Positions 9,547 through 34,022 of a stretch of 34,022 nt of DNA are shown in pieces. Each line of letters begins with the position of its first letter. The stretch's first letter is position 1. The DNA is from a virus. The notes under the pieces are model-generated. The model made no database searches. It was not told where the DNA came from and saw only the letters and a list, made by a program, of their open reading frames with translations. The stretch is from positions 1 through 34,022 of IMG/VR virus record IMGVR_UViG_3300023313_000021. One strand, given 5' to 3'. The position numbers were made by a program, and so were the translations under genes.

Positions 9547-9606
9547 AATTTTAGGGGCACGAGAGCTTTTTATCTATCTGTAATTTTAGGGGCACGAGAG
9601 CTTTTT
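9547..9606. repeat. Tandem repeat with GGCACGAGAG core
   Basis: Two identical 25-bp units (9547-9571 and 9582-9606), 35 bp apart, share the core TAGGGGCACGAGAGC followed by five T. The same unit recurs once at 18081-18104 in the presumed origin region, with partial copies beside it. The repeat is in the non-coding gap between the lysis and replication genes. Its role is unknown; a protein-binding site or replication element is plausible. Confidence 0.75.
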
Positions 9607-11018: not shown

Positions 11019-11044
11019 TATATACTTCATGCTGTCTACTTTTC
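11019..11044 (-). promoter_or_regulatory. Minus-strand element (AGTATAT family)
   Basis: The minus strand reads AAAGTAGACAGCATGAAGTA and then TATAAT, overlapping the end of the helicase gene. The copy before 14792 is nearly the same, differing at only a few positions. It contains a perfect TATAAT. Confidence 0.55.
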
Positions 11045-12623
11045 AAAACTTAACCTCTTCATCACTAGGGCTTAGTTGTTTTAAACATACTTTACGGTGG
11101 CGAATATAATCTGTCACTTCACCTTTATAAACTAAATCTATGTTGACGTGTGGTCTTGGAGCATTCTTAATTACACCATTTACTTCAATATCACATCTCT
11201 TAGCAATCTTCTTCATGCTTATACCTGTAGCTTTTACTTCTGTTTGTAATGTAAGAGCAAACTTCTTATTACTAAAAGGCCTAAGATTATTCTCAGCGCA
11301 AAAGAACTTGTAGTCATCGAACATATCTGTAGTCTTTGTTTCACATTCTGGGGTCTCCATAATCTTAAACTGACTAAGATATGATAGGCAACTATTTGTT
11401 TCAACTTGGTAATTTCTTGTCTTTTCAACAATAGCTTTGCTTTCTGTAAATACCCAATTGTTAGCTTTAAGTCTCATCAAACCATTTATAGCCCATGTTA
11501 AAACATAATCCAATTCATTAGCTTTAATCTGTTCAGCCAAATCATCAATCTTATCTTCTTCTTTAGGTGGATTATCGAACGGTACTATAAACATTCTTCT
11601 CCAAAAACCGGCCGACGAGTCCATAATATGAGGAAGTTCATTACATGAAAAAATAAATCTACTTTGATTTCTAAAAGGAATATCATCCTTATATTTACGT
11701 TGGACATTAATCAAATCACCAGTAACTAGTTTCTTAAGTGCTTGTTCCATAATCTTTTTATCTGTTTCAGCAGCAGTGCATAGTGTAGCGTCAAGTATTC
11801 TGTTAAGTTGAAACCCATCTAAATTATCAGGCTCAACCGCTACAGTACGGAAGTGTAAAGCTGTAACTAAATCAATAAAAACACTCTTACCGTCTCCACC
11901 ACCACCTGTTAAGAATAACATCTTACCCTTGTTGATATTCTGTATTAATGAATAACCTACATATTCTTGTAGTAAATCCTGGATACCCTGATCAGGTATT
12001 GAGGTTCTTAAGAAGTGATCGAACAATGGACCTCTGCTCATATTGTCATAATCAGCATTAATATAGTAGCAAAAGTTATAATCCTTATCAATAGGTATTT
12101 CTTTAAGCTTTCCATCGTCTGTTATAGTAACATATTTATTCTTTAGTGGAATAATAACGTCATCTCTATTAGCTGTCTTCTTCAATGAGGTGGCTTGACT
12201 AGCTACCATGCTACCGCAACTTGTAAGTTTAGACGTGGAGCTCTCATCACCCAAAAACTTGTGTGCCATCTTCTCTATAAAAGAAGTACTCACTCTATGC
12301 CAATGGTTTTCTCTCCACTCATAAAAATCACTTCCATATTTGATCCTTATGCTATCTTCCTTAGATATACTCTCTAGGAATAATAAGTCATGGGACTTTC
12401 TCACTGGTTTGCCACCTTTAGCAGGGTTATTATAATAAGACAGTAGTTCAGCCTGCTTCTTAGGGCTAAGGCTCTCCATGATAGCCTTAAGATCGTCTAG
12501 TACGATATTAGGCGCTTCCTCTCTATCTTTCCTTGGGTTACAACTTCTATTACTACTATCTCTCTTAGTTATTTGTTTTGTAATTTTTTCTTCTTCTTTA
12601 AAATATGGTTTCACTTCACTCAT
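11043..12623 (-). CDS. SF3 replicative helicase, D5/P4 alpha-type
   Basis: A 526-residue superfamily 3 helicase. Residues 1-75 are charged and probably disordered. A D5_N-like region covers about 80-230. The ATPase core has Walker A GGGGDGKS (240-247), an acidic pair around 286-288 ('AAETDKK'), a sensor-like 'FIFSCNELP' (323-331) and the 'SSAGFWRRMFIVPFD' arginine-finger segment (336-350). These are hallmarks of poxvirus D5/phage P4-type hexameric helicases. A fused primase domain is not evident, so the host primase or an unseen partner would be needed. The ATG has GGAGG nine bases upstream. The 149-nt gap before it holds a repeated element and a strong stem-loop. Confidence 0.88.
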   Translation of the reverse strand: MSEVKPYFKEEEKITKQITKRDSSNRSCNPRKDREEAPNIVLDDLKAIMESLSPKKQAELLSYYNNPAKGGKPVRKSHDLLFLESISKEDSIRIKYGSDFYEWRENHWHRVSTSFIEKMAHKFLGDESSTSKLTSCGSMVASQATSLKKTANRDDVIIPLKNKYVTITDDGKLKEIPIDKDYNFCYYINADYDNMSRGPLFDHFLRTSIPDQGIQDLLQEYVGYSLIQNINKGKMLFLTGGGGDGKSVFIDLVTALHFRTVAVEPDNLDGFQLNRILDATLCTAAETDKKIMEQALKKLVTGDLINVQRKYKDDIPFRNQSRFIFSCNELPHIMDSSAGFWRRMFIVPFDNPPKEEDKIDDLAEQIKANELDYVLTWAINGLMRLKANNWVFTESKAIVEKTRNYQVETNSCLSYLSQFKIMETPECETKTTDMFDDYKFFCAENNLRPFSNKKFALTLQTEVKATGISMKKIAKRCDIEVNGVIKNAPRPHVNIDLVYKGEVTDYIRHRKVCLKQLSPSDEEVKF

Positions 12624-12688
12624 TTTTAGCCTCCTATAGCTATGTTATTATATATAGGCACCACCTATAATTTGTTTAATATTAATTT

Positions 12689-12744
12689 TATGAGGTTGGG
12701 GGGCCTGGTAAGCCGTTAAGAAACGTTAGGCCGTCAACCTCATA
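12689..12744 (-). ncRNA. Structured leader element of the helicase mRNA
   Basis: TATGAGGTTG (minus strand, 12735-12744) pairs perfectly with CAACCTCATA (12689-12698). Inside are a second pairing, GGCCT/AGGCC, and a small CGTT-TCTT-AACG hairpin. No U tract follows, so it is not a standard terminator. It lies downstream of a promoter-like element and about 65 nt before the helicase start, a position suited to controlling helicase translation or mRNA stability, or to acting as a protein-binding or origin structure. Confidence 0.55.
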
Positions 12745-12748
12745 ATTA

Positions 12749-12774
12749 GATATACTATATAGTGGTTAACTTTT
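12749..12774 (-). promoter_or_regulatory. Minus-strand element before the helicase leader
   Basis: The minus strand reads AAAGTTAACCACTATATAGT and then ATATCTAA, beginning at the stop of the sigma-like gene. Unlike most copies it is over 120 nt from the next start, so it is not simply a ribosome binding site context; this supports a promoter role. Confidence 0.5.
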
Positions 12775-13483
12775 AGACGTATTTAATGTATTTTTCTTTA
12801 AAATCAGCAAAACTTTCACAATTTGTTTCCTCAACTATAAACTTTGTGAAAATATCAATGAAACTTTCTCTCACTAATATGCCATCTTTGTTATACTTTC
12901 CTTTAATGGCTCCTCTCACTTTAGCCATGCCAATTCCTTCATTCTTACTAATAACACTCATAGGAATTCCGTCAACTATATTCATAGCTACTATTTTTAT
13001 CTCTGTAGCGTTATCTTTTATGAATTCAGCAATCCTATCATTACTTATTTCTATATTTCTATCTTCATCAACTATTTCACTAAAATATTCGTCTAGATCC
13101 ATACTTTCACAATGTTCTTCTAAGTTATCTACGCTGTAAGCTCTCACACCGCCGCTCTTATCTAAGATAAGGTTCATCTTCGTCAACTCGTCTGTGACGT
13201 GTTTAAACACCCAAAACTTAGCGTGAAAAAAGAATGGCGTACCTCTAGAAGTGTCAAACGTCTTCATAGCTTTACACATACCCTCAAGCCCTGCTTGATA
13301 TAAATCTTGATATACCTCTGTGTTTTTAAATTGCTTGCTCTTAGCCGTAATAACAATCTCTGGCAGATTATAGTGCAAAACAACCATCTCCTCAAGCAGC
13401 TTCTTCTTATCATCAGCGTATTTCTTAACCAACGCACAATCTTTTAAATAAACTTCATGTATTTCAGCTTTCGTCATTCTCAT
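12773..13483 (-). CDS. Phage-encoded sigma-70-family-like factor
   Basis: A 236-residue protein. Residues 58-102 match sigma-70 region 2: 'VYQDLYQAGLEGMCKAMKTFD' then 'RGTPFFFHAKFWVFKHVTDEL', corresponding to the family 'DLiQeGliGLikAvekFDpsrG.kFsTYA..wI...I' used for core polymerase and -10 recognition. A possible region 4 helix-turn-helix lies near 168-195 ('IPMSVISKNEGIGMAKVRGAI'). It would redirect host RNA polymerase to phage promoters, and the genome has two repeated promoter-like families to recognise. It overlaps the upstream gene as ATGA behind a GGAG site. Divergence in region 4 leaves open that it is a co-activator or another DNA-binding factor. Confidence 0.7.
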   Translation of the reverse strand: MRMTKAEIHEVYLKDCALVKKYADDKKKLLEEMVVLHYNLPEIVITAKSKQFKNTEVYQDLYQAGLEGMCKAMKTFDTSRGTPFFFHAKFWVFKHVTDELTKMNLILDKSGGVRAYSVDNLEEHCESMDLDEYFSEIVDEDRNIEISNDRIAEFIKDNATEIKIVAMNIVDGIPMSVISKNEGIGMAKVRGAIKGKYNKDGILVRESFIDIFTKFIVEETNCESFADFKEKYIKYV

Positions 13484-14985: not shown

Positions 14986-15014
14986 ATTATACACTAATGT
15001 TAAGCGTTTGTCAA
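14986..15014 (-). promoter_or_regulatory. Consensus sigma-70 promoter
   Basis: On the minus strand TTGACA (15009-15014) is separated by exactly 17 bases from TATAAT (14986-14991). Both boxes are perfect matches to the bacterial housekeeping consensus. It points into the operon that includes the sigma-like factor and helicase, so host polymerase can transcribe these immediately after infection. It is the only perfect host-type promoter I saw. Confidence 0.88.
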
Positions 15015-15065: not shown

Positions 15066-15446
15066 ATGGCAAAACGAACTCCCCCATGCGAACAATATCC
15101 TACCTGGTCCACCGCCAAGTTCTGGAGCTTCTTAAGAAGTGGCCTAAGGCAAAAGTGGATGCGGTGGCCACCAAAGTTCGAGGCCCTCAAGGATTCTCGC
15201 ATAGACGTCCAAAATCAAGGCCGTACGCGCTTTAACTATAAGTGTGCTAAGTGTGAGGCATATTTCAAGCAAAAAGAGGTAGAGGTTGACCATATCGTCC
15301 CTGCTGGAACATTAAAGGACTGGGGAGACATAGAAGGGTTCACACGCCGGCTCTTCGTGTCAAAAGACAAATTGAGAGTAGTATGTAAACCCTGCCATAA
15401 GAAAATTACTGCGGCAGAGAAAGCTCGTCTTCAGCCCAAAATCTAA
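15066..15446 (+). CDS. HNH endonuclease
   Basis: A 126-residue HNH nuclease. The zinc pairs C60/C63 and C107/C110 flank the catalytic 'EVDHIVPAG' (D75, H76), with H111 closing the motif ('VCKPCHKK'). The N-terminal 'FWSFLRSGLRQKW-RWPP' block is typical of free-standing HNH enzymes in phages. It could be a homing-type nicking enzyme or, when beside terminase, a packaging helper. Here it stands alone on the plus strand inside the minus-strand early operon, and its last 41 bases overlap the end of the 15406-15669 gene. The nearest purine-rich site (AGAGG) is rather far upstream. The insertion-like placement suggests a mobile origin. Confidence 0.85.
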   Translation: MAKRTPPCEQYPTWSTAKFWSFLRSGLRQKWMRWPPKFEALKDSRIDVQNQGRTRFNYKCAKCEAYFKQKEVEVDHIVPAGTLKDWGDIEGFTRRLFVSKDKLRVVCKPCHKKITAAEKARLQPKI

Positions 15447-17311: not shown

Positions 17312-17339
17312 TTCTCCGTTTCTACATACTAAAATACCC
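17312..17339 (-). promoter_or_regulatory. Late-type element on the minus strand, before the methylase
   Basis: On the minus strand GTATTTTA and TAGAAACGGAGA are present with the usual spacing. The 28 bases 17312-17339 are identical to 26787-26814, which precede the tail chaperone gene on the plus strand. This is the only copy of the late-type family on the minus strand. Confidence 0.65.
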
Positions 17340-17640
17340 ACGTTGGCCTTTTAGCTTTAGCAATACTACTGTTGCCCAAGCTTGTAGCTCAGCTGTAGAG
17401 CTTAAGAGAGGAGAGAAGAGAAAAAAATATAATTAAGTTAGTATGAGAGTTTGAAGATAATATAAGGGAGTTAGTTTCAAAAATATTATAATTATGTTAT
17501 CAGTTAGTTTCGTAATAGTTTTGAGAATAGTTTCGTAATAGTTTCATGAAGGGAACATTAAAATAATTTAATATATTTACATATTTTAAGTGCATTTAGT
17601 GAATTTAGTATGAAAGTAAATAATTTCCAAAAACGACCCA

Positions 17641-17767
17641 TAACACTGTGAGGCGTTGATACTAAAGGGCTGTAGCGATATTTTGATGACAATGTTAGAC
17701 GTTGTTAGGCTTTGTTAGGGGTTAAAAAAAGAGACACCTAACACTGTGAGGCGTTGATACTAAAGGG
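17641..17767. repeat. 29-bp direct repeat pair
   Basis: Bases 17641-17669 and 17739-17767 are identical (core TGTGAGGCGTTGATAC followed by TAAAGGG), 98 bp apart. A diverged third copy lies near 17935-17956 (GTAAGTTGTTGATATATAAG). Between copies are TGTTAG hexamers. They are likely binding sites for a replication or regulatory protein. Confidence 0.75.
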
Positions 17768-17982
17768 ATAGAGACGTTTTAAAGAGTAAATGTTCCTCTC
17801 TTTCTTACTTTTCTAGAAAGTTTAAAATATATAATAATGGACTAAAAGGGGCATATAAGGCCTAAAACACCACAATTCTCTATATATAAGTCTTTGGGAA
17901 TAGACACCTAACACCTAACACACCTAACATTTCGCTGTAAGTTGTTGATATATAAGGATATTTCAATGTTAGGGGTTGTTAG
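17693..17982. repeat. Cluster of nine TGTTAG/CTAACA iterons
   Basis: TGTTAG occurs at 17693, 17703, 17713, 17967 and 17977 and the complement CTAACA at 17738, 17908, 17915 and 17924. The spacing of neighbouring copies is mostly 7-10 bp. Such clusters typify origins bound by an initiator. The inverted halves face each other across about 100-200 bp. Confidence 0.65.
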
Positions 17983-18052
17983 CTATCGGATGACGTCAAA
18001 AGAGACAAACATTTTATCCGGTCGATAGCTTTTCTTAATGTTAAAAATTATC

Positions 18053-18104
18053 GGCTCGAGAGGTTTTTACGGCACGAGAGAATTTAGGGGCACGAGAGCT
18101 TTTT
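18053..18104. repeat. GGCACGAGAG repeats in the control region
   Basis: The core GGCACGAGAG appears at 18071-18080 and 18089-18098, with a one-base variant (GGCTCGAGAG) at 18053-18062, at 18-bp spacing. The last copy is embedded in the same 24-25-bp unit found twice at 9547-9606. Confidence 0.7.
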
Positions 18105-18650
18105 GACTATCTATAGAATTTTATAGCCCCTACTCTAGAGAATTCCAGAGCACGTCAGAAATTACTAGCCTGATTAAAAAATAGGCACATTTTCACTAAT
18201 TGCCTAAAAAATAAGCATAGTGTAATTATTCCCCCTATAGGGGTAATTTTTGCCCCCTTTTTTCATTTGGGTGCAATTTACTCAATAGCGGCCGATATTA
18301 GCCGGCTGCAAATCTATCTCAATAGGCTATATATAAATACATAGCCGGCGCCGCCATTAATTAAAATAGGGCTGCAAATATAGTAATAGGTTAAAATATT
18401 TAAAATATTAGCGCCGGCAATTCTATCTATTGCCCCCCCATATCGCGCCTCCTAAATAATAGCCTATATTGCTATCTATCCCCCATATACAACTATCCGG
18501 CGTATTCTATCCTTATCCCTATTTTATTTATATTTATTTTAATTTAATTTCTTCAACGATTTCAAGTACTTGCGCCACTATTTTCGGTATCCCTTAAATT
18601 AATTTACAAAATAGCCCCAAAAAGTTCTACCCCATGAAGTATATATCTAC

Positions 18651-18707
18651 ATAAGAGGCAAACCGATCAACGATCTCTATCGGCTTACCGATCGCCTTAC
18701 CTCTTAT
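18651..18707 (+). ncRNA. Stem-loop upstream of the island genes
   Basis: ATAAGAGG (18651-18658) pairs with CCTCTTAT (18700-18707), enclosing a CCGAT/ATCGG hairpin (18663-18683). The element is followed by an A-rich, not U-rich, stretch. It may be a structured leader, an operator or part of the origin. Confidence 0.45.
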
Positions 18708-18726
18708 AAAAGAAAAAATTAATTAA

Positions 18727-18751
18727 ATAGGTATACATGCCTATATATAAT
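18727..18751 (+). promoter_or_regulatory. Dyad-TATAAT module 1 of the island
   Basis: An 18-bp dyad of the type ATAGGC-N6-GCCTAT (here ATAGGT-atacat-GCCTAT, 18727-18744) is followed immediately by TATAAT (18746-18751) and then ATAGGAGGC before the ATG. No gene precedes this copy, so the dyad is better read as an operator than as a terminator. Confidence 0.6.
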
Positions 18752-18778
18752 AATATAACGGCAATAGGAGGCCATAAA

Positions 18779-18865
18779 ATGAATGAAAATATATCAACAT
18801 ACTTAGTATTAATAGCTAGCGGATTTACCGGCGTGATGGCGCTAATTATAGGGGCTGCAGTATGA
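18779..18865 (+). CDS. 28-residue membrane peptide
   Basis: A 28-residue peptide, MNENISTYLVLIASGFTG and then VMALIIGAAV, that is almost entirely one membrane helix. AGGAGG lies 6-7 bases before the ATG and the stop overlaps the next start as ATGA. A perfect site, the dyad-TATAAT module and the coupling argue that it is real despite its size. A small membrane peptide paired with a helical cytosolic partner might act in membrane disruption or host exclusion, but this is a guess. Confidence 0.6.
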   Translation: MNENISTYLVLIASGFTGVMALIIGAAV

Positions 18866-19071
18866 ATATTAGTAACAAAATAGAAATTGTTCAGCTTAAA
18901 ATAGAAAAAATTGAAATAGATAAAAAAATTAATTCTATTAAAAATAAATCTAATAGAATAGAATGCGATAGATGCCACTTAATATTATTAGATAATATTA
19001 GTAACTTAATGCAAAAGATATCTAAATTAATGTCAACACATGAATATACTGCAGAATTGAGAAAAAAATAA
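18862..19071 (+). CDS. Small Lys/Ile-rich helical protein, coupled to the membrane peptide
   Basis: A 69-residue protein. Residues 1-32 form a Lys/Ile/Glu coiled coil ('KIEIVQLKIEKIEIDKKIN'), followed by 'RIECDRCHLILLDN' with a CxxC pair (35, 38) and a second helix. It starts within the stop of the 28-residue membrane peptide. No family is recognised. The short coiled coil could pair with itself or with the peptide. Confidence 0.55.
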   Translation: MNISNKIEIVQLKIEKIEIDKKINSIKNKSNRIECDRCHLILLDNISNLMQKISKLMSTHEYTAELRKK

Positions 19072-19081
19072 AATTAAATAA

Positions 19082-19104
19082 ATCGGCGTACGCGCCTATA
19101 TAAT
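19082..19104 (+). promoter_or_regulatory. Dyad-TATAAT module 2 of the island
   Basis: The dyad ATCGGC-gtacgc-GCCTAT (19082-19099) shares its last T with TATAAT (19099-19104), followed by GATAGC-TATAGGAGGC and the ATG at 19137. The layout matches modules 1 and 3. Confidence 0.6.
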
Positions 19105-19136
19105 AATATAGAAGGATAGCTATAGGAGGCAATAAA

Positions 19137-19316
19137 ATGAATATAAAAGAAAAAATGAAAATATTAGAAAAAAAATTCAACGCGCTTGAGGATATGAAAA
19201 ATATAGAAGGCTTTTGGGGCGTTGATAGCTTAATATACCGCGATTATAAATTAAAGCTATCGGCCTTGATCGATAGGCGCGCGTATTATATTGAGATGCA
19301 AAATAAAATTAAATAA
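19137..19316 (+). CDS. Small hypothetical protein, 59 residues
   Basis: A 59-residue helical protein starting MNIKEKMKILEKKF, with 'GFWGVDSLIYRDYKL' in the middle and an Arg/Tyr-rich end. AGGAGG lies 6-7 bases before the ATG, and it has its own dyad-TATAAT module. Codons such as GCG, CGC, GGC and TCG are frequent, unlike the AGA/GGT-style choice of the structural genes. No family is recognised. Confidence 0.6.
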   Translation: MNIKEKMKILEKKFNALEDMKNIEGFWGVDSLIYRDYKLKLSALIDRRAYYIEMQNKIK

Positions 19317-19368
19317 ATAGGCCGCCGCGCCTATATAATATAATAAGCGATCAAGGCGCCGCCCTTGA
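19317..19368 (+). promoter_or_regulatory. Dyad-TATAAT module 3 of the island, with a second dyad
   Basis: ATAGGC-cgccgc-GCCTAT (19317-19334) is a perfect dyad starting right after the preceding stop and sharing its last T with TATAAT (19334-19339). A second 18-bp dyad, TCAAGG-cgccgc-CCTTGA (19351-19368), lies downstream of the box, in the would-be leader; both dyads have the same 6-base centre. Confidence 0.6.
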
Positions 19369-19403
19369 ATAGAATAAATAAAATAGCCATAGGAGGCAAT
19401 AAG

Positions 19404-19712
19404 ATGAATAATTTAAATAGTATGTATGGAAATATATCGGCGGATGATTTTACGCAAATAAATACGGATGGGTACGGCAACCCTCAATATAGTATATCGC
19501 CCCATGACATTGCAAATGTATTGAATATTAATATATTGCAAATGGGAATAAGTAAGGCAATAAAGAAGATCCAAAAAATTACCGGCCTCAATAAAGTGAG
19601 GGGCAGATATCAACTTAAGATGCAGTCATATAGCTTATCTAGTGACGTAAAGGTATTAAATTCTATAATAGACGATTATAATTTTAAGCAATGGGAGGCC
19701 TATGATGAATAA
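19404..19712 (+). CDS. Hypothetical island protein
   Basis: A 102-residue protein from the ATG at 19404, which has AGGAGG eight bases upstream; the earlier in-frame ATG at 19365 lies inside a dyad. It starts MNNLNSMYGNISADDF and has a helical centre ('HDIANVLNINILQMGISKAI') that could be a small helix-turn-helix: 'SPHDIANVLNIN' resembles the start of such motifs. It overlaps the next gene by 8 bases. It may be a small DNA-binding regulator acting on the nearby dyads, but this is inference. Confidence 0.55.
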   Translation: MNNLNSMYGNISADDFTQINTDGYGNPQYSISPHDIANVLNINILQMGISKAIKKIQKITGLNKVRGRYQLKMQSYSLSSDVKVLNSIIDDYNFKQWEAYDE

Positions 19713-20127
19713 TTTAAATATAGATCTATTGCGATCAATTGAGAATATGAAGGGCCGCGACGGACGTCCAGAATTCTGCAAAATATTAGCGCGTCGCGAC
19801 GCGGCGCGTACTGAGGCCGGACTGGATCAACTGCACAATATATTTGCAACTATTAATACGCGCCGGACTATTGAGGATATGCGTAAAAAATTAAATAGGT
19901 GGGAGCCGACGCTGGACGGCTATAAATATACGAATAACATAGGCGACGTCTCGGCCTATTGTCATAAATACGACGGTAATATGATTACGCCGGCCGGCGG
20001 CTGGATATTATATATTGATGATGATATCCAGATACGTCGCCGCTATCTCAAGGATATCAAGGCCTATCTATCGGATCACCTGAGATATATCGGACTGAGG
20101 CAGCCGGCGCTACTTGATTACATATAA
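19705..20127 (+). CDS. Hypothetical island protein
   Basis: A 140-residue protein; of the two adjacent ATGs I choose the second (19705), since GGGAGG is then seven bases upstream and the first 15 coding bases repeat those of the preceding gene. It is rich in Arg and Asp ('KILARRDAARTEAGLDQL', 'IQIRRRYLKDIKAYL') with 'GGWILYIDDDI' near the C-terminal third. Arg is mostly CGC/CGT here, whereas AGA dominates in structural genes, pointing to a different origin. It is followed by a GC-rich hairpin. No family is recognised. Confidence 0.55.
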   Translation: MNNLNIDLLRSIENMKGRDGRPEFCKILARRDAARTEAGLDQLHNIFATINTRRTIEDMRKKLNRWEPTLDGYKYTNNIGDVSAYCHKYDGNMITPAGGWILYIDDDIQIRRRYLKDIKAYLSDHLRYIGLRQPALLDYI

Positions 20128-20146
20128 ATATAATTATAATAATAAT

Positions 20147-20166
20147 GGGGCCCTATCAAGGGCCCC
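20147..20166 (+). terminator. GC-rich hairpin ending the island
   Basis: GGGGCCCT (20147-20154) and AGGGCCCC (20159-20166) pair perfectly around ATCA. Only a weak T-containing tail follows, so termination is likely but not certain. It lies 20 bases after the last island stop. Confidence 0.6.
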
Positions 20167-26757: not shown

Positions 26758-26797
26758 CTAAAATATACCCTGAGGATACGTCCTTGGGGTATTTTAG
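26758..26797 (+). terminator. Long hairpin between tube and chaperone genes, overlapping a late-type element
   Basis: CTAAAATA, CCC and AGGA pair with TCCT, GGG and TATTTTAG around TACG, with small bulges, forming a nearly symmetrical 40-nt stem-loop. It may terminate or attenuate the tube transcript. The 3' arm (GTATTTTA, 26789-26796) is also the core of the next late-type element, so terminator and promoter share bases. Confidence 0.65.
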
Positions 26798-26818
26798 TAT
26801 GTAGAAACGGAGAATATA
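26787..26818 (+). promoter_or_regulatory. Late-type element before the tail chaperone gene
   Basis: It has GTATTTTA and an exact TAGAAACGGAGA leading to the ATG at 26819. It is identical over 28 bases to the minus-strand copy at 17312-17339 before the methylase. Confidence 0.65.
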
Positions 26819-31890: not shown

Positions 31891-34022
31891 ATGGCTGTTG
31901 AACAGAAGATTATATTTACAGGTGATAACACTAAACTATTAAGCTCCATCAGTAGCATGGATGCTTCTATAACCAAGCTTGAGGCTAAGATAGTAGCTTT
32001 AAATACTAGTGCGTCAAAAGGATTTAAAGACCAGGCTACAGCCGCTACAGGCCTATCTAGAGAGCTTTCATCAACTGCTTCAGTAGCTGGTAAATTAAAG
32101 AATTCACTTAAGTTCGGTGGTGGAGTAGTAAAGGTAAATAAGGAGACGATAAGTCTAGATAAATCTATGAACAGATTGTCAGCTTCAACCAGAAAGGCTG
32201 TAGCTGAACTTAATAGAGTTACTGATAATAAAATAAGATCACTTATTAAAAGTTCTCAAAAAGCAGCTAAATCTACTAGCGTTTTGGGATCTACTATTAA
32301 GAAAATAGGGGCAGCATATATAGCATTTAAAACTATAGATGTATTTAAGAAGATAATAAAAGACACAATAGACTTTCAGTCAGCATTGGTTAAAATTAAG
32401 TTCGCCACAGGTGATGCTGCTGGTAGTATAGAGTTTCTAAAGAAAACAGCTGACACTTTTGGAACAAGTTTAGAAAACTCAATAAACTCTTTCGCAAACT
32501 TTGCGGCAGCCTCTAAGGGCACAGCAATTGAAGGTGAGAAACTTAGAAAAATATTCACAGGTCTTACTGCTGCTATGGCAGGAAATAGGGTAACTGCTGA
32601 TAGACAAAAACTAGTATTGCTAGCTGTTGAACAAATGATGTCTAAAGGTGTTGTATCTGCTGAAGAATTGCGTAGACAGATGGGTGAGCATTTACCTGGT
32701 GCCTTCTCTATTGCCGCTAAAAGTATGGGTATGACAACCAAAAGCTTTAATAAACTTTTAGCATCTGGTAAGATAATGACAGAAGACTTTTTACCAAAGT
32801 TTACAGCACTTCTTAAAGTAAGATTTGGAGACGCTGCTACTGAACAGGCCGACAAAGCTGCTGCTTCATTCATAAGACTTGGAAATGCTATATATGGCGC
32901 TTCTGTAGCTGTTGGTGAGTCAGGTGTAGTTGATTTCTTTGCTTTCTTAGCAGATGGATTAACTAGTACAATAAAAATAGTAAGGACACCTGAAGTTCAA
33001 GATATACTCGGTACAATGTTCTCGTGGTCAAGTATTGGGATGGCACTTAAGGCAAAGGATGCTATTATTGAATTCAATAAAACAGCTGCTGAAATAAGTC
33101 ATGATAAACTTGTAGAAAACGCTGTAACTGTTGATCAGAAGAAACTACTTGACTCAATAGATGGTATTAGTAGATACGAGAAACTTATCAAGAGTGTTCG
33201 TAAAGAACTAGCTGTTGAGCAATCAAAAAATCCTCTTCCTGATATCATACCAGCTAGTAGAAAAGAGTTAGAAATAAAGAGAAAACTACTTAGACTACAG
33301 GAAAGTCAAAATAAGCAGACAGAAATATATAATACAATCCTGAAAAATAAGGGCAATATACTTGAAGGTAATGCTCAAATAGAAGAGCTGGCGATTAAGA
33401 AAGTAATAGATAGCAGCAATAAGATAATAAATCAAACAGCTGAAGTAATGGGTAATATAAATGGGTTAGATATACCTAGTATATATGGCAAGTTATTTGA
33501 TGGTGGACCTGCTAAGATAAGTGGTTTTCAAGAAAATATAAAGAAAATAGAAAAAGCATATGCTGCTCTAGAGCTTAAAAATGCTAGACTAGCATCTAAT
33601 CCAATAGGCAACAAAGATGCTATAGACGCAAATACTCTAGCTATGCAAAATCAGCTTGATAAAATAGCTGAAATAAAAGCTAAGATTACTGATATAACTA
33701 ATACTGACAATAATATAAAACTCAGTGTTGATAATAAAGCAAAAGAAAATATAAATAACCTTAAGGCAGCTGTTGGTGAAGTATCTCCAGAAGTAGCTGC
33801 TTTAAGAAATAAGTTCTTAGAATTACAGATACAGATAGGGGCAGCTACTAACCCTGAAGTAATAAGACTTTTAAATCTTGAGATGCAACAAACAACTCAT
33901 GAAATAAATGTAGCCAATGGTATAGAAGTAGCATCTGTATACGGTAAATTATTCGAGGGTGGCGAAATAAGAATACAGAAGTTTAAAGATGATATTCAGT
34001 CAACCATGGAAGAAATTAAGCG
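31891..34022 (+). CDS. Tape measure protein, N-terminal part (continues at window start)
   Basis: The first 710 codons of a 982-residue tape measure, open to the end of the window and continued at 13-960. A GGAGAG site precedes the ATG. Residues 1-130 are helical and basic. Residues about 150-300 carry the tape_meas_nterm (TIGR02675) pattern: 'FQSALVKIKFATGD', then 'GVVSAEELRRQMGEHLPGAF' and 'FNKLLASGKIMTEDFLPKF'. The rest is a long helical Lys/Ala/Asn-rich rod. Using the usual scaling of tail length with tape length, it predicts a tail of roughly 150 nm, and so a siphovirus; this is an estimate. Confidence 0.93.
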   Translation, partial: MAVEQKIIFTGDNTKLLSSISSMDASITKLEAKIVALNTSASKGFKDQATAATGLSRELSSTASVAGKLKNSLKFGGGVVKVNKETISLDKSMNRLSASTRKAVAELNRVTDNKIRSLIKSSQKAAKSTSVLGSTIKKIGAAYIAFKTIDVFKKIIKDTIDFQSALVKIKFATGDAAGSIEFLKKTADTFGTSLENSINSFANFAAASKGTAIEGEKLRKIFTGLTAAMAGNRVTADRQKLVLLAVEQMMSKGVVSAEELRRQMGEHLPGAFSIAAKSMGMTTKSFNKLLASGKIMTEDFLPKFTALLKVRFGDAATEQADKAAASFIRLGNAIYGASVAVGESGVVDFFAFLADGLTSTIKIVRTPEVQDILGTMFSWSSIGMALKAKDAIIEFNKTAAEISHDKLVENAVTVDQKKLLDSIDGISRYEKLIKSVRKELAVEQSKNPLPDIIPASRKELEIKRKLLRLQESQNKQTEIYNTILKNKGNILEGNAQIEELAIKKVIDSSNKIINQTAEVMGNINGLDIPSIYGKLFDGGPAKISGFQENIKKIEKAYAALELKNARLASNPIGNKDAIDANTLAMQNQLDKIAEIKAKITDITNTDNNIKLSVDNKAKENINNLKAAVGEVSPEVAALRNKFLELQIQIGAATNPEVIRLLNLEMQQTTHEINVANGIEVASVYGKLFEGGEIRIQKFKDDIQSTMEEIK
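33892..34022. repeat. Contig-end overlap, right copy
   Basis: It matches 13-143 with one difference. See the left copy; together they show that the contig closes into a circle of about 33,879 bp. Confidence 0.9.

Follow-up and report, generated by a model that had tools for sequence, protein, structure and literature searches.

Organization of the phage genome and genes of the island

The window, i.e., the whole virus record of 34,022 bases, is most likely a complete phage genome that was circularly closed in assembly, because its two ends repeat each other (13–143 and 33892–34022; 131 nt, 99% identical); the run of G at the record start, preceding the terminal repeat at 13–143, looks artefactual. 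The late region on the plus strand carries terminase, head, and GTA-like tail genes, and the early region (8.7–17.3 kb), located on the minus strand for the most part, encodes a D5-like primase-helicase, a gene similar to sigma-70 region 2, and a D12 methylase. The divergent early and late regions are separated by a non-coding stretch (17629–17982) with 41-nt direct repeats (ACACTGTGAGGCGTTGATACTAAAGGG) and CCTAAC/GTTAGG repeats, within which the GC skew switches its sign; this stretch is a possible replication origin. The sequence TTTAGGGGCACGAGAGCTTTTT is found three times, at 9550 and 9585 in one early intergenic region and at 18083 upstream of the island. A 28-nt perfect inverted repeat (GGGTATTTTAGTATGTAGAAACGGAGAA), located at 17312–17339 upstream of the methylase gene and at 26787–26814 upstream of a late gene, represents a copied promoter and ribosome site. 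An HNH endonuclease-like gene that converges on an early gene (15066–15446, plus strand; 48% GC, deviant codons) is probably a separate acquired element.

The island comprises five small unrecognised frames of 28, 69, 59, 102, and 140 codons (ORF1–ORF5), confirmed at the positions given in the original prediction (Table 1). Purines are commonest at the first codon position in all five, which is coding-like. Each gene starts with ATGAAT, and the encoded proteins are unrelated; ORF4 and ORF5 have the same first 16 bases (ATGAATAATTTAAATA; 19404–19419 and 19705–19720), and homology of these two was rejected, the proteins not being homologous. The island probably ends at the hairpin 20147–20166, where the terminator-like call of the scan is on the minus strand.

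Table 1. Positions of the island features and of related sites in the window
Feature	Position	Strand	Remarks
Phage-type early/middle promoter, CAAAAAGTTCTACCCCATGAAGTATAT	18618..18644	+	Putative start of the island transcript; matrix rank 8, score 20.3
Leader P1-P2-P3	18651..18707	+	Three stacked helices, internal loops AC/CC and AA/GCUUACC; fold z −3.5
Module 1	18727..18778	+	Hairpin P4 (18727–18744), AT-rich linker with TATAAT, ribosome-binding motif GCAATAGGAGGC
ORF1	18779–18865	+	28 aa, one hydrophobic stretch; translation; no family
ORF2	18862–19071	+	69 aa; overlap with ORF1 is ATGA; no family
Module 2	19082..19130	+	Hairpin (19082–19099), linker, GCTATAGGAGGC; RNA model match E 1.5e-5
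ORF3	19137–19316	+	59 aa; composition outlier (3 CGCG)
Module 3	19317..19397	+	Hairpin (19317–19334), second hairpin (19351–19368), GCCATAGGAGGC
ORF4	19404–19712	+	102 aa; no family, no usable structure
ORF5	19705–20127	+	140 aa; strongest composition outlier (6 CGCG; Arg 80% CGN); no relative
Hairpin GGGGCCC-TATCAA-GGGCCCC	20147..20166	+	Directly after the last gene; possible operon end
Phage-type early/middle promoter, CTAAAAGTTAACCACTATATAGTATAT	12750..12776	−	Promoter of the primase-helicase gene; matrix rank 7, score 24.8
Leader P1-P2-P3, second copy	12688..12745	−	Same structure; fold z −5.6
Module 4	12624..12668	−	Hairpin ATAGGTGGTGCCTAT (12654–12668), linker, GCTATAGGAGGC
Primase-helicase (D5-like)	11043..12623	−	Gene behind the shared leader; PHROG 864 DNA primase, E 3e-64
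Sigma-like gene	12773–13483		Sigma-70 region 2 similarity
AGTATTTTA sites	1556, 6851, 20710, 24118, 25752, 27446, 29372, 30711, 31861	+
AGTATTTTA variant	26796	+
AGTATTTTA variants	17330, 10610, 9515	−

Searches for relatives

No significant match was found for the island proteins in Pfam, PHROGs, NCBIfam, PADLOC-DB, PDB sequences, phages, or plasmids (each collection searched with some or all of the genes); the best hit to the known defence genes of PADLOC-DB had an E of 0.02, which is not significant. A counter-defence role is possible for candidate genes of the island. The 140-residue protein had no credible relative among viral contigs, phages, and plasmids, nor had the 102-, 59-, and 69-residue proteins among phages. 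Searches of Pfam, NCBIfam, PHROGs, and PDB sequences with the 102-residue protein gave no significant match, including matches to DNA-binding proteins, and the predicted models of the 102- and 140-residue proteins are too uncertain (pLDDT 41 and 47, respectively). As for the core genes, the sigma-like protein had no credible relative among phages, and the primase-helicase had no close viral contig, with relatives at 22–31% among the phage matches listed. Searches with portal and terminase yielded distant relatives only; the nearest is a 9.2-kb contig (L011) with a 54% identical terminase, and this fragment stops short of the early region.

Composition of the island

The z-scores of codon usage are −10.2 for ORF5 and −2.9 for ORF3. 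The preference for CGC/CGT, GCG, and GGC codons formerly ascribed to the island genes in general is borne out by the 140-residue gene and partly by the 59-residue gene, and not by the 28- and 69-residue genes or by the 102-residue gene, in which CGN codons are entirely absent. The tetranucleotide CGCG is present 12 times in the 1.7 kb of the island (9.5 expected), 9 of these sites falling in ORF3 and ORF5, versus 3 times in the remaining 32 kb (14.4 expected). TGCA is avoided outside the island (39 seen vs 97 expected), and the island avoids neither of the two; the avoidance of CGCG and TGCA outside the island looks as if it had arisen under restriction pressure. Judging from these compositions, ORF3 and ORF5 were probably acquired recently, or else derive from a source in which CGCG is not avoided.

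The island had been described as an acquired cassette. By codon and k-mer comparison with the rest of the genome, a foreign character is apparent in ORF5 and ORF3 and in the CGCG counts. Acquisition is thus supported in part, by two composition outliers that escape the CGCG avoidance, whereas the promoter and leader of the island (see below) are of a type native to the phage; the new genes therefore seem to have been placed under the phage's regulatory front or to have been brought in together with it. An assembly chimera is unlikely, because the island is connected with the phage core by the promoter and leader that they have in common.

Modules with a dyad, TATAAT, and a ribosome-binding motif

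Dyads of the form ATAGGC-N6-GCCTAT (at most one mismatch) begin at 18727, 19082, and 19317, and no others are found in the genome; the mean count in shuffled sequences was 0.13, and three dyads were reached in none of 100 shuffles. The three modules of the original prediction are hence present, far above chance: TATAAT lies 1 nt past the dyad at 18727 and shares the last T of the dyad at 19082 and 19317, and is followed downstream by ATAGGAGGC and then ATG. The second dyad in module 3, also previously noticed, was confirmed (TCAAGG-CGCCGC-CCTTGA), its centre being the same as that of the 19317 dyad.

Searching the genome with the island revealed a 70% identical match on the minus strand (12615–12754), in the upstream region of the primase-helicase gene. 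Ahead of this gene lies a fourth module, ATAGGTGGTGCCTAT-ATATAATAA-CATAGCT-ATAGGAGGC-TAAAA-ATG, with its parts in the same order as in the island, i.e., the dyad ATAGGTGGTGCCTAT, TATATAATAA, GCTATAGGAGGC, and ATG. The modules therefore extend to a gene of the phage core; recurrence of the module in a distant, unrelated region, which the original prediction had named as evidence against itself, is thus observed at the primase-helicase gene. The strict pattern CCTATATA-N5..22-GCNATAGGAGGC fits three of the four modules and none of the shuffled sequences; module 3 (19317) has the same parts as the others with a longer linker. GCNATAGGAGGC is kept in all four, so that conservation of the ribosome-binding motif extends far past AGGAGG, and a perfect TATAAT is located at the dyad or within 2 nt of it throughout. 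The dyad (hairpin P4) measures 18 bp in the three island modules and 15 bp in the module before the primase-helicase gene. Its 3′ arm (GCCTAT) is invariant and its 5′ arm variable, with a wobble U–G in two modules and a C–U mismatch in one; the P4 loops are unlike one another in all four modules, and the distance from the 3′ end of P4 to the start codon is 30, 34, 37, or 69 nt.

In the predicted folds of the four modules, P4 is formed and AGGAGG is mostly unpaired. The sequence CCUAU in the 3′ arm of P4 is also complementary, in every module, to AUAGG of the invariant AUAGGAGGC. Since this alternative pairing, in which the ribosome site is closed, is 2.0–7.4 kcal/mol weaker than the open form, the predicted ground state is the one with P4 formed and the ribosome site open. 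A degenerate fifth cassette, composed of a hairpin (ATAGC-N7-GCTAT), TTAGGAGGC, and ATG, is located at 18310–18470 on the minus strand; its short frame reads MGGQ and then stops at seven consecutive G, and another length of this G run would make a frame of 42 codons with island-like composition.

Predicted promoters and the leader element

The motif AAAAGTAGaCAnnnTGnAGTATAT is common to six minus-strand sites directly upstream of early genes. When a promoter weight matrix was trained on these six sites, leaving out 12756 minus and 18638 plus, the next two hits genome-wide were exactly these two (Table 1), followed by a late promoter-like site scoring 16.5 and then a score of 13.8. The two AAAAGTAGaCAnnnTGnAGTATAT-type promoters are both ~130 nt upstream of the first start codon, one of the primase-helicase gene and one of the island. 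From these positions we infer that transcription of the strand carrying the island or the primase-helicase gene starts at these promoters; with a phage promoter upstream of both, all the dyads would lie inside RNA, two of them in 5′ leaders and two in intercistronic regions.

Elsewhere in the genome, a perfect sigma-70 promoter (TTGACA-17-TATAAT; 14986–15014, minus strand) located ahead of the early operon is probably an immediate-early promoter used by the host polymerase. A second promoter-like class (AGTATTTTA) is found ahead of late genes, and this class, the AGTATAT class, and the sigma-like gene together suggest a three-step transcription programme; at least three promoter-like classes are present in the phage.

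Upstream of the two modules that come first in a transcript (18727 and 12668), a further element of ~57 nt is inserted between the promoter and the dyad. Its two copies, of 57 and 58 nt, fold alone into the same structure, which is composed of P1 (11 positions), the AC/CC loop, P2 (five pairs), the AA/GCUUACC loop, and P3 (four pairs) closed by a 4-nt loop. P1 begins 4 and 6 nt past the promoter motif, at or near the expected first RNA base, and the island copy would accordingly sit at the 5′ end of the RNA. Comparison of the two copies, both from one genome, revealed that 9 of the 20 pairs are changed on both sides yet still paired, 10 are unchanged, and one is changed on one side, giving a C–A mismatch in one copy. 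This pattern was equalled in none of 200,000 permutations, and 19 random substitutions kept 19 leader pairs in none of 100,000 trials. The two leaders agree in their internal-loop bases (AC, AA, and GCUUACC), one extra C aside, while the stems differ. Such a pattern is that of a selected structure, which probably acts as RNA. The other early genes of the phage have no leader of this kind.

The complement of GCUUACC (GGTAAGC), with which a pseudoknot could form, is absent from the coding strand of both leaders, and the predicted fold is nested. Neither an architecture scan nor a covariance model found a third full copy; the model matched the two leaders and two intercistronic modules (E 1.5e-5 and 0.006), recognising the latter via the hairpin and the ribosome-binding part, and gave nothing credible beyond. 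With the leader patterns used, 2.9 million viral contigs and 84,980 genomes of bacteria and archaea yielded no relative, and the module pattern had zero matches in viral contigs and genomes. Among the matches dismissed, one was a GC-rich microvirus-like contig (L009), another was without the dyad (L003), and the remaining DNA-pattern matches lacked the stem pairs. Rfam, searched at a lenient threshold, gave chance matches only and no leader class.

Interpretation of the dyads and the leader

The original prediction gave each gene its own operator and promoter. On this reading, the dyads occupy the spacers of TATAAT promoters as DNA operators, and a dimeric regulator, perhaps the 102-residue protein, would bind them in a self-regulated cassette. 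The −10 box adjoining each dyad was indeed found, without a mismatch, in all four modules; the host polymerase probably reads TATAAT boxes, as the perfect TTGACA-17-TATAAT at 15014 minus indicates, and the half-sites of the dyads are similar. The strongest argument for this promoter reading is that TATAAT is invariant, which may stem from common descent of the modules or from a second, internal promoter. Against it, the change from 18 to 15 bp rotates the half-sites by ~100 degrees relative to each other, a shift that a dimeric DNA-binding protein could scarcely accommodate and that argues against a single DNA operator, whereas an RNA hairpin would merely alter its loop; a TTGACA-like box is missing upstream; the phage promoter motif is already present upstream of both first modules, with the structure-conserved leader in between; and the 102-residue protein has neither a DNA-binding match nor a usable predicted model. 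We consider a DNA operator unlikely, and the searches with the 102-residue protein lend no support to self-regulation by it. Given the upstream phage-type promoter, the compensated leader, the 15- versus 18-bp dyads, and the absence of an evident −35 box, the dyads are best read as RNA hairpins, located in the 5′-UTR and between cistrons, that belong to a translation-initiation cassette. What stands of the earlier cassette is one transcription unit of small unrecognised genes with a repeated regulatory module.

As RNA, the leader and hairpins might act constitutively with no regulator, protecting the 5′ end of the mRNA, marking sites of processing, or keeping the ribosome site open for high expression. 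The predicted stable state with an open ribosome site, the repetition of hairpins ahead of cistrons, and the AUGAAU starts with a strong AGGAGG all fit this explanation. Protection alone, however, would not require the internal loops AC, AA, and GCUUACC to remain identical while the stems changed, and the leader is absent from the other early genes; a purely constitutive role is thus rather improbable in our estimation. P1-P3 could also be folded single-stranded DNA, for instance a site for replication priming or recombination, as the hairpins adjoin the primase-helicase gene and the possible origin region (17600–18100), and compensatory changes cannot separate RNA from DNA hairpins. That both copies are in gene orientation, begin at the expected 5′ end of a transcript, and are joined to a ribosome-binding cassette makes this very unlikely.

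We thus favour, with moderate confidence, a reading of the island as one accessory transcription unit with an RNA leader and hairpin cassettes, under translational co-control with the primase-helicase gene; the phage may control both through their mRNA. The unit (18618–20166) would start at the promoter 18618–18644, and the 5′ end of the mRNA would fold at once into P1-P3 and P4, followed by an unpaired AU-rich linker, GCNAUAGGAGGC, and AUG. The cassette of hairpin, linker, and GCNAUAGGAGGC recurs between cistrons, ahead of ORF3 and ORF4, and the same promoter, leader, and cassette precede the primase-helicase gene. P4, the linker, and the ribosome-binding motif may constitute a translational operator about 30–70 nt upstream of the start codon, and P1-P3, where the transcript begins, could additionally bind a protein or ligand. 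The action of P4 may be competitive, CCUAU pairing with AUAGG either of the 5′ arm (open) or of the ribosome-binding motif (closed). A replication-linked phage protein would then repress or license the translation of the primase and the accessory operon jointly, the candidates being the primase-helicase itself or another early protein. Several findings speak against this co-control: the leader is limited to two copies in one genome, with no relative in the collections searched by pattern; the P4 loops differ among the modules; the closed ribosome site is 2–7 kcal/mol less stable; and TATAAT in all four modules fits the promoter reading. More tentatively, P1-P3 and P4 might form a regulatory phage leader RNA of a class not described before, which, on sensing a protein or small molecule, would switch the translation of the primase-helicase and the accessory operon together; we regard this as doubtful. 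If the co-control is true, a small phage with at least three promoter-like classes and a sigma-like gene gains a second control layer at the RNA level, and the leader of a replication gene becomes a search rule for co-regulated accessory genes whose function is not known.

Comparison with known systems

Translational control by replication proteins is classic in T4-like phages. To our knowledge, a single structured leader that links a replication gene and an accessory operon translationally has been described in few phage systems.

The replication proteins of T4 genes 43 and 32 bind a hairpin or a pseudoknot ahead of the ribosome site and thereby repress their own translation (PMC3014915). In the gene 43 operator of T4/RB69, a hairpin of 16–18 nt is located ~40 nt upstream of the start codon, together with a sequence overlapping the ribosome site (PMC3014915). 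The present cassette is alike in the size of P4 (15–18 nt), its position 30–69 nt before the start codon, the conserved stretch through the ribosome site, and the replication gene downstream. It differs in that the P4 loops are not conserved, whereas the gp43 site is marked by a conserved loop, which speaks against an exactly gp43-like mode; it also has the additional three-helix element upstream, fronts an accessory operon as well, and recurs between cistrons. By analogy with this autogenous control, the primase-helicase would be the first candidate for the repressor. In the autogenous operator of gene 32, a 5′ pseudoknot precedes an A+U-rich run that is unstructured and covers the ribosome site (PMC3014915); the folded 5′ element and AU-rich unpaired linker to the ribosome site seen here resemble this arrangement. 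Unlike the gene 32 operator, the phage leader has three stacked helices with internal loops in which no pseudoknot through GCUUACC was found, is common to two transcripts, and is followed by a linker without UUAA(A) repeats.

A riboswitch with a translational expression platform likewise has a leader with conserved internal loops, followed by a hairpin that might cover the ribosome site with its 3′ arm; the phage leader departs from it by the lack of an Rfam match or a ligand, the lower stability of the closed state, and its two known copies. Finally, the island resembles the accessory (moron-like) operons of phages in its small unrecognised genes of deviant composition between the early and late regions, its own promoter, and its terminator-like hairpin, but the promoter and leader, which it shares with a core gene, are of a kind native to this phage.
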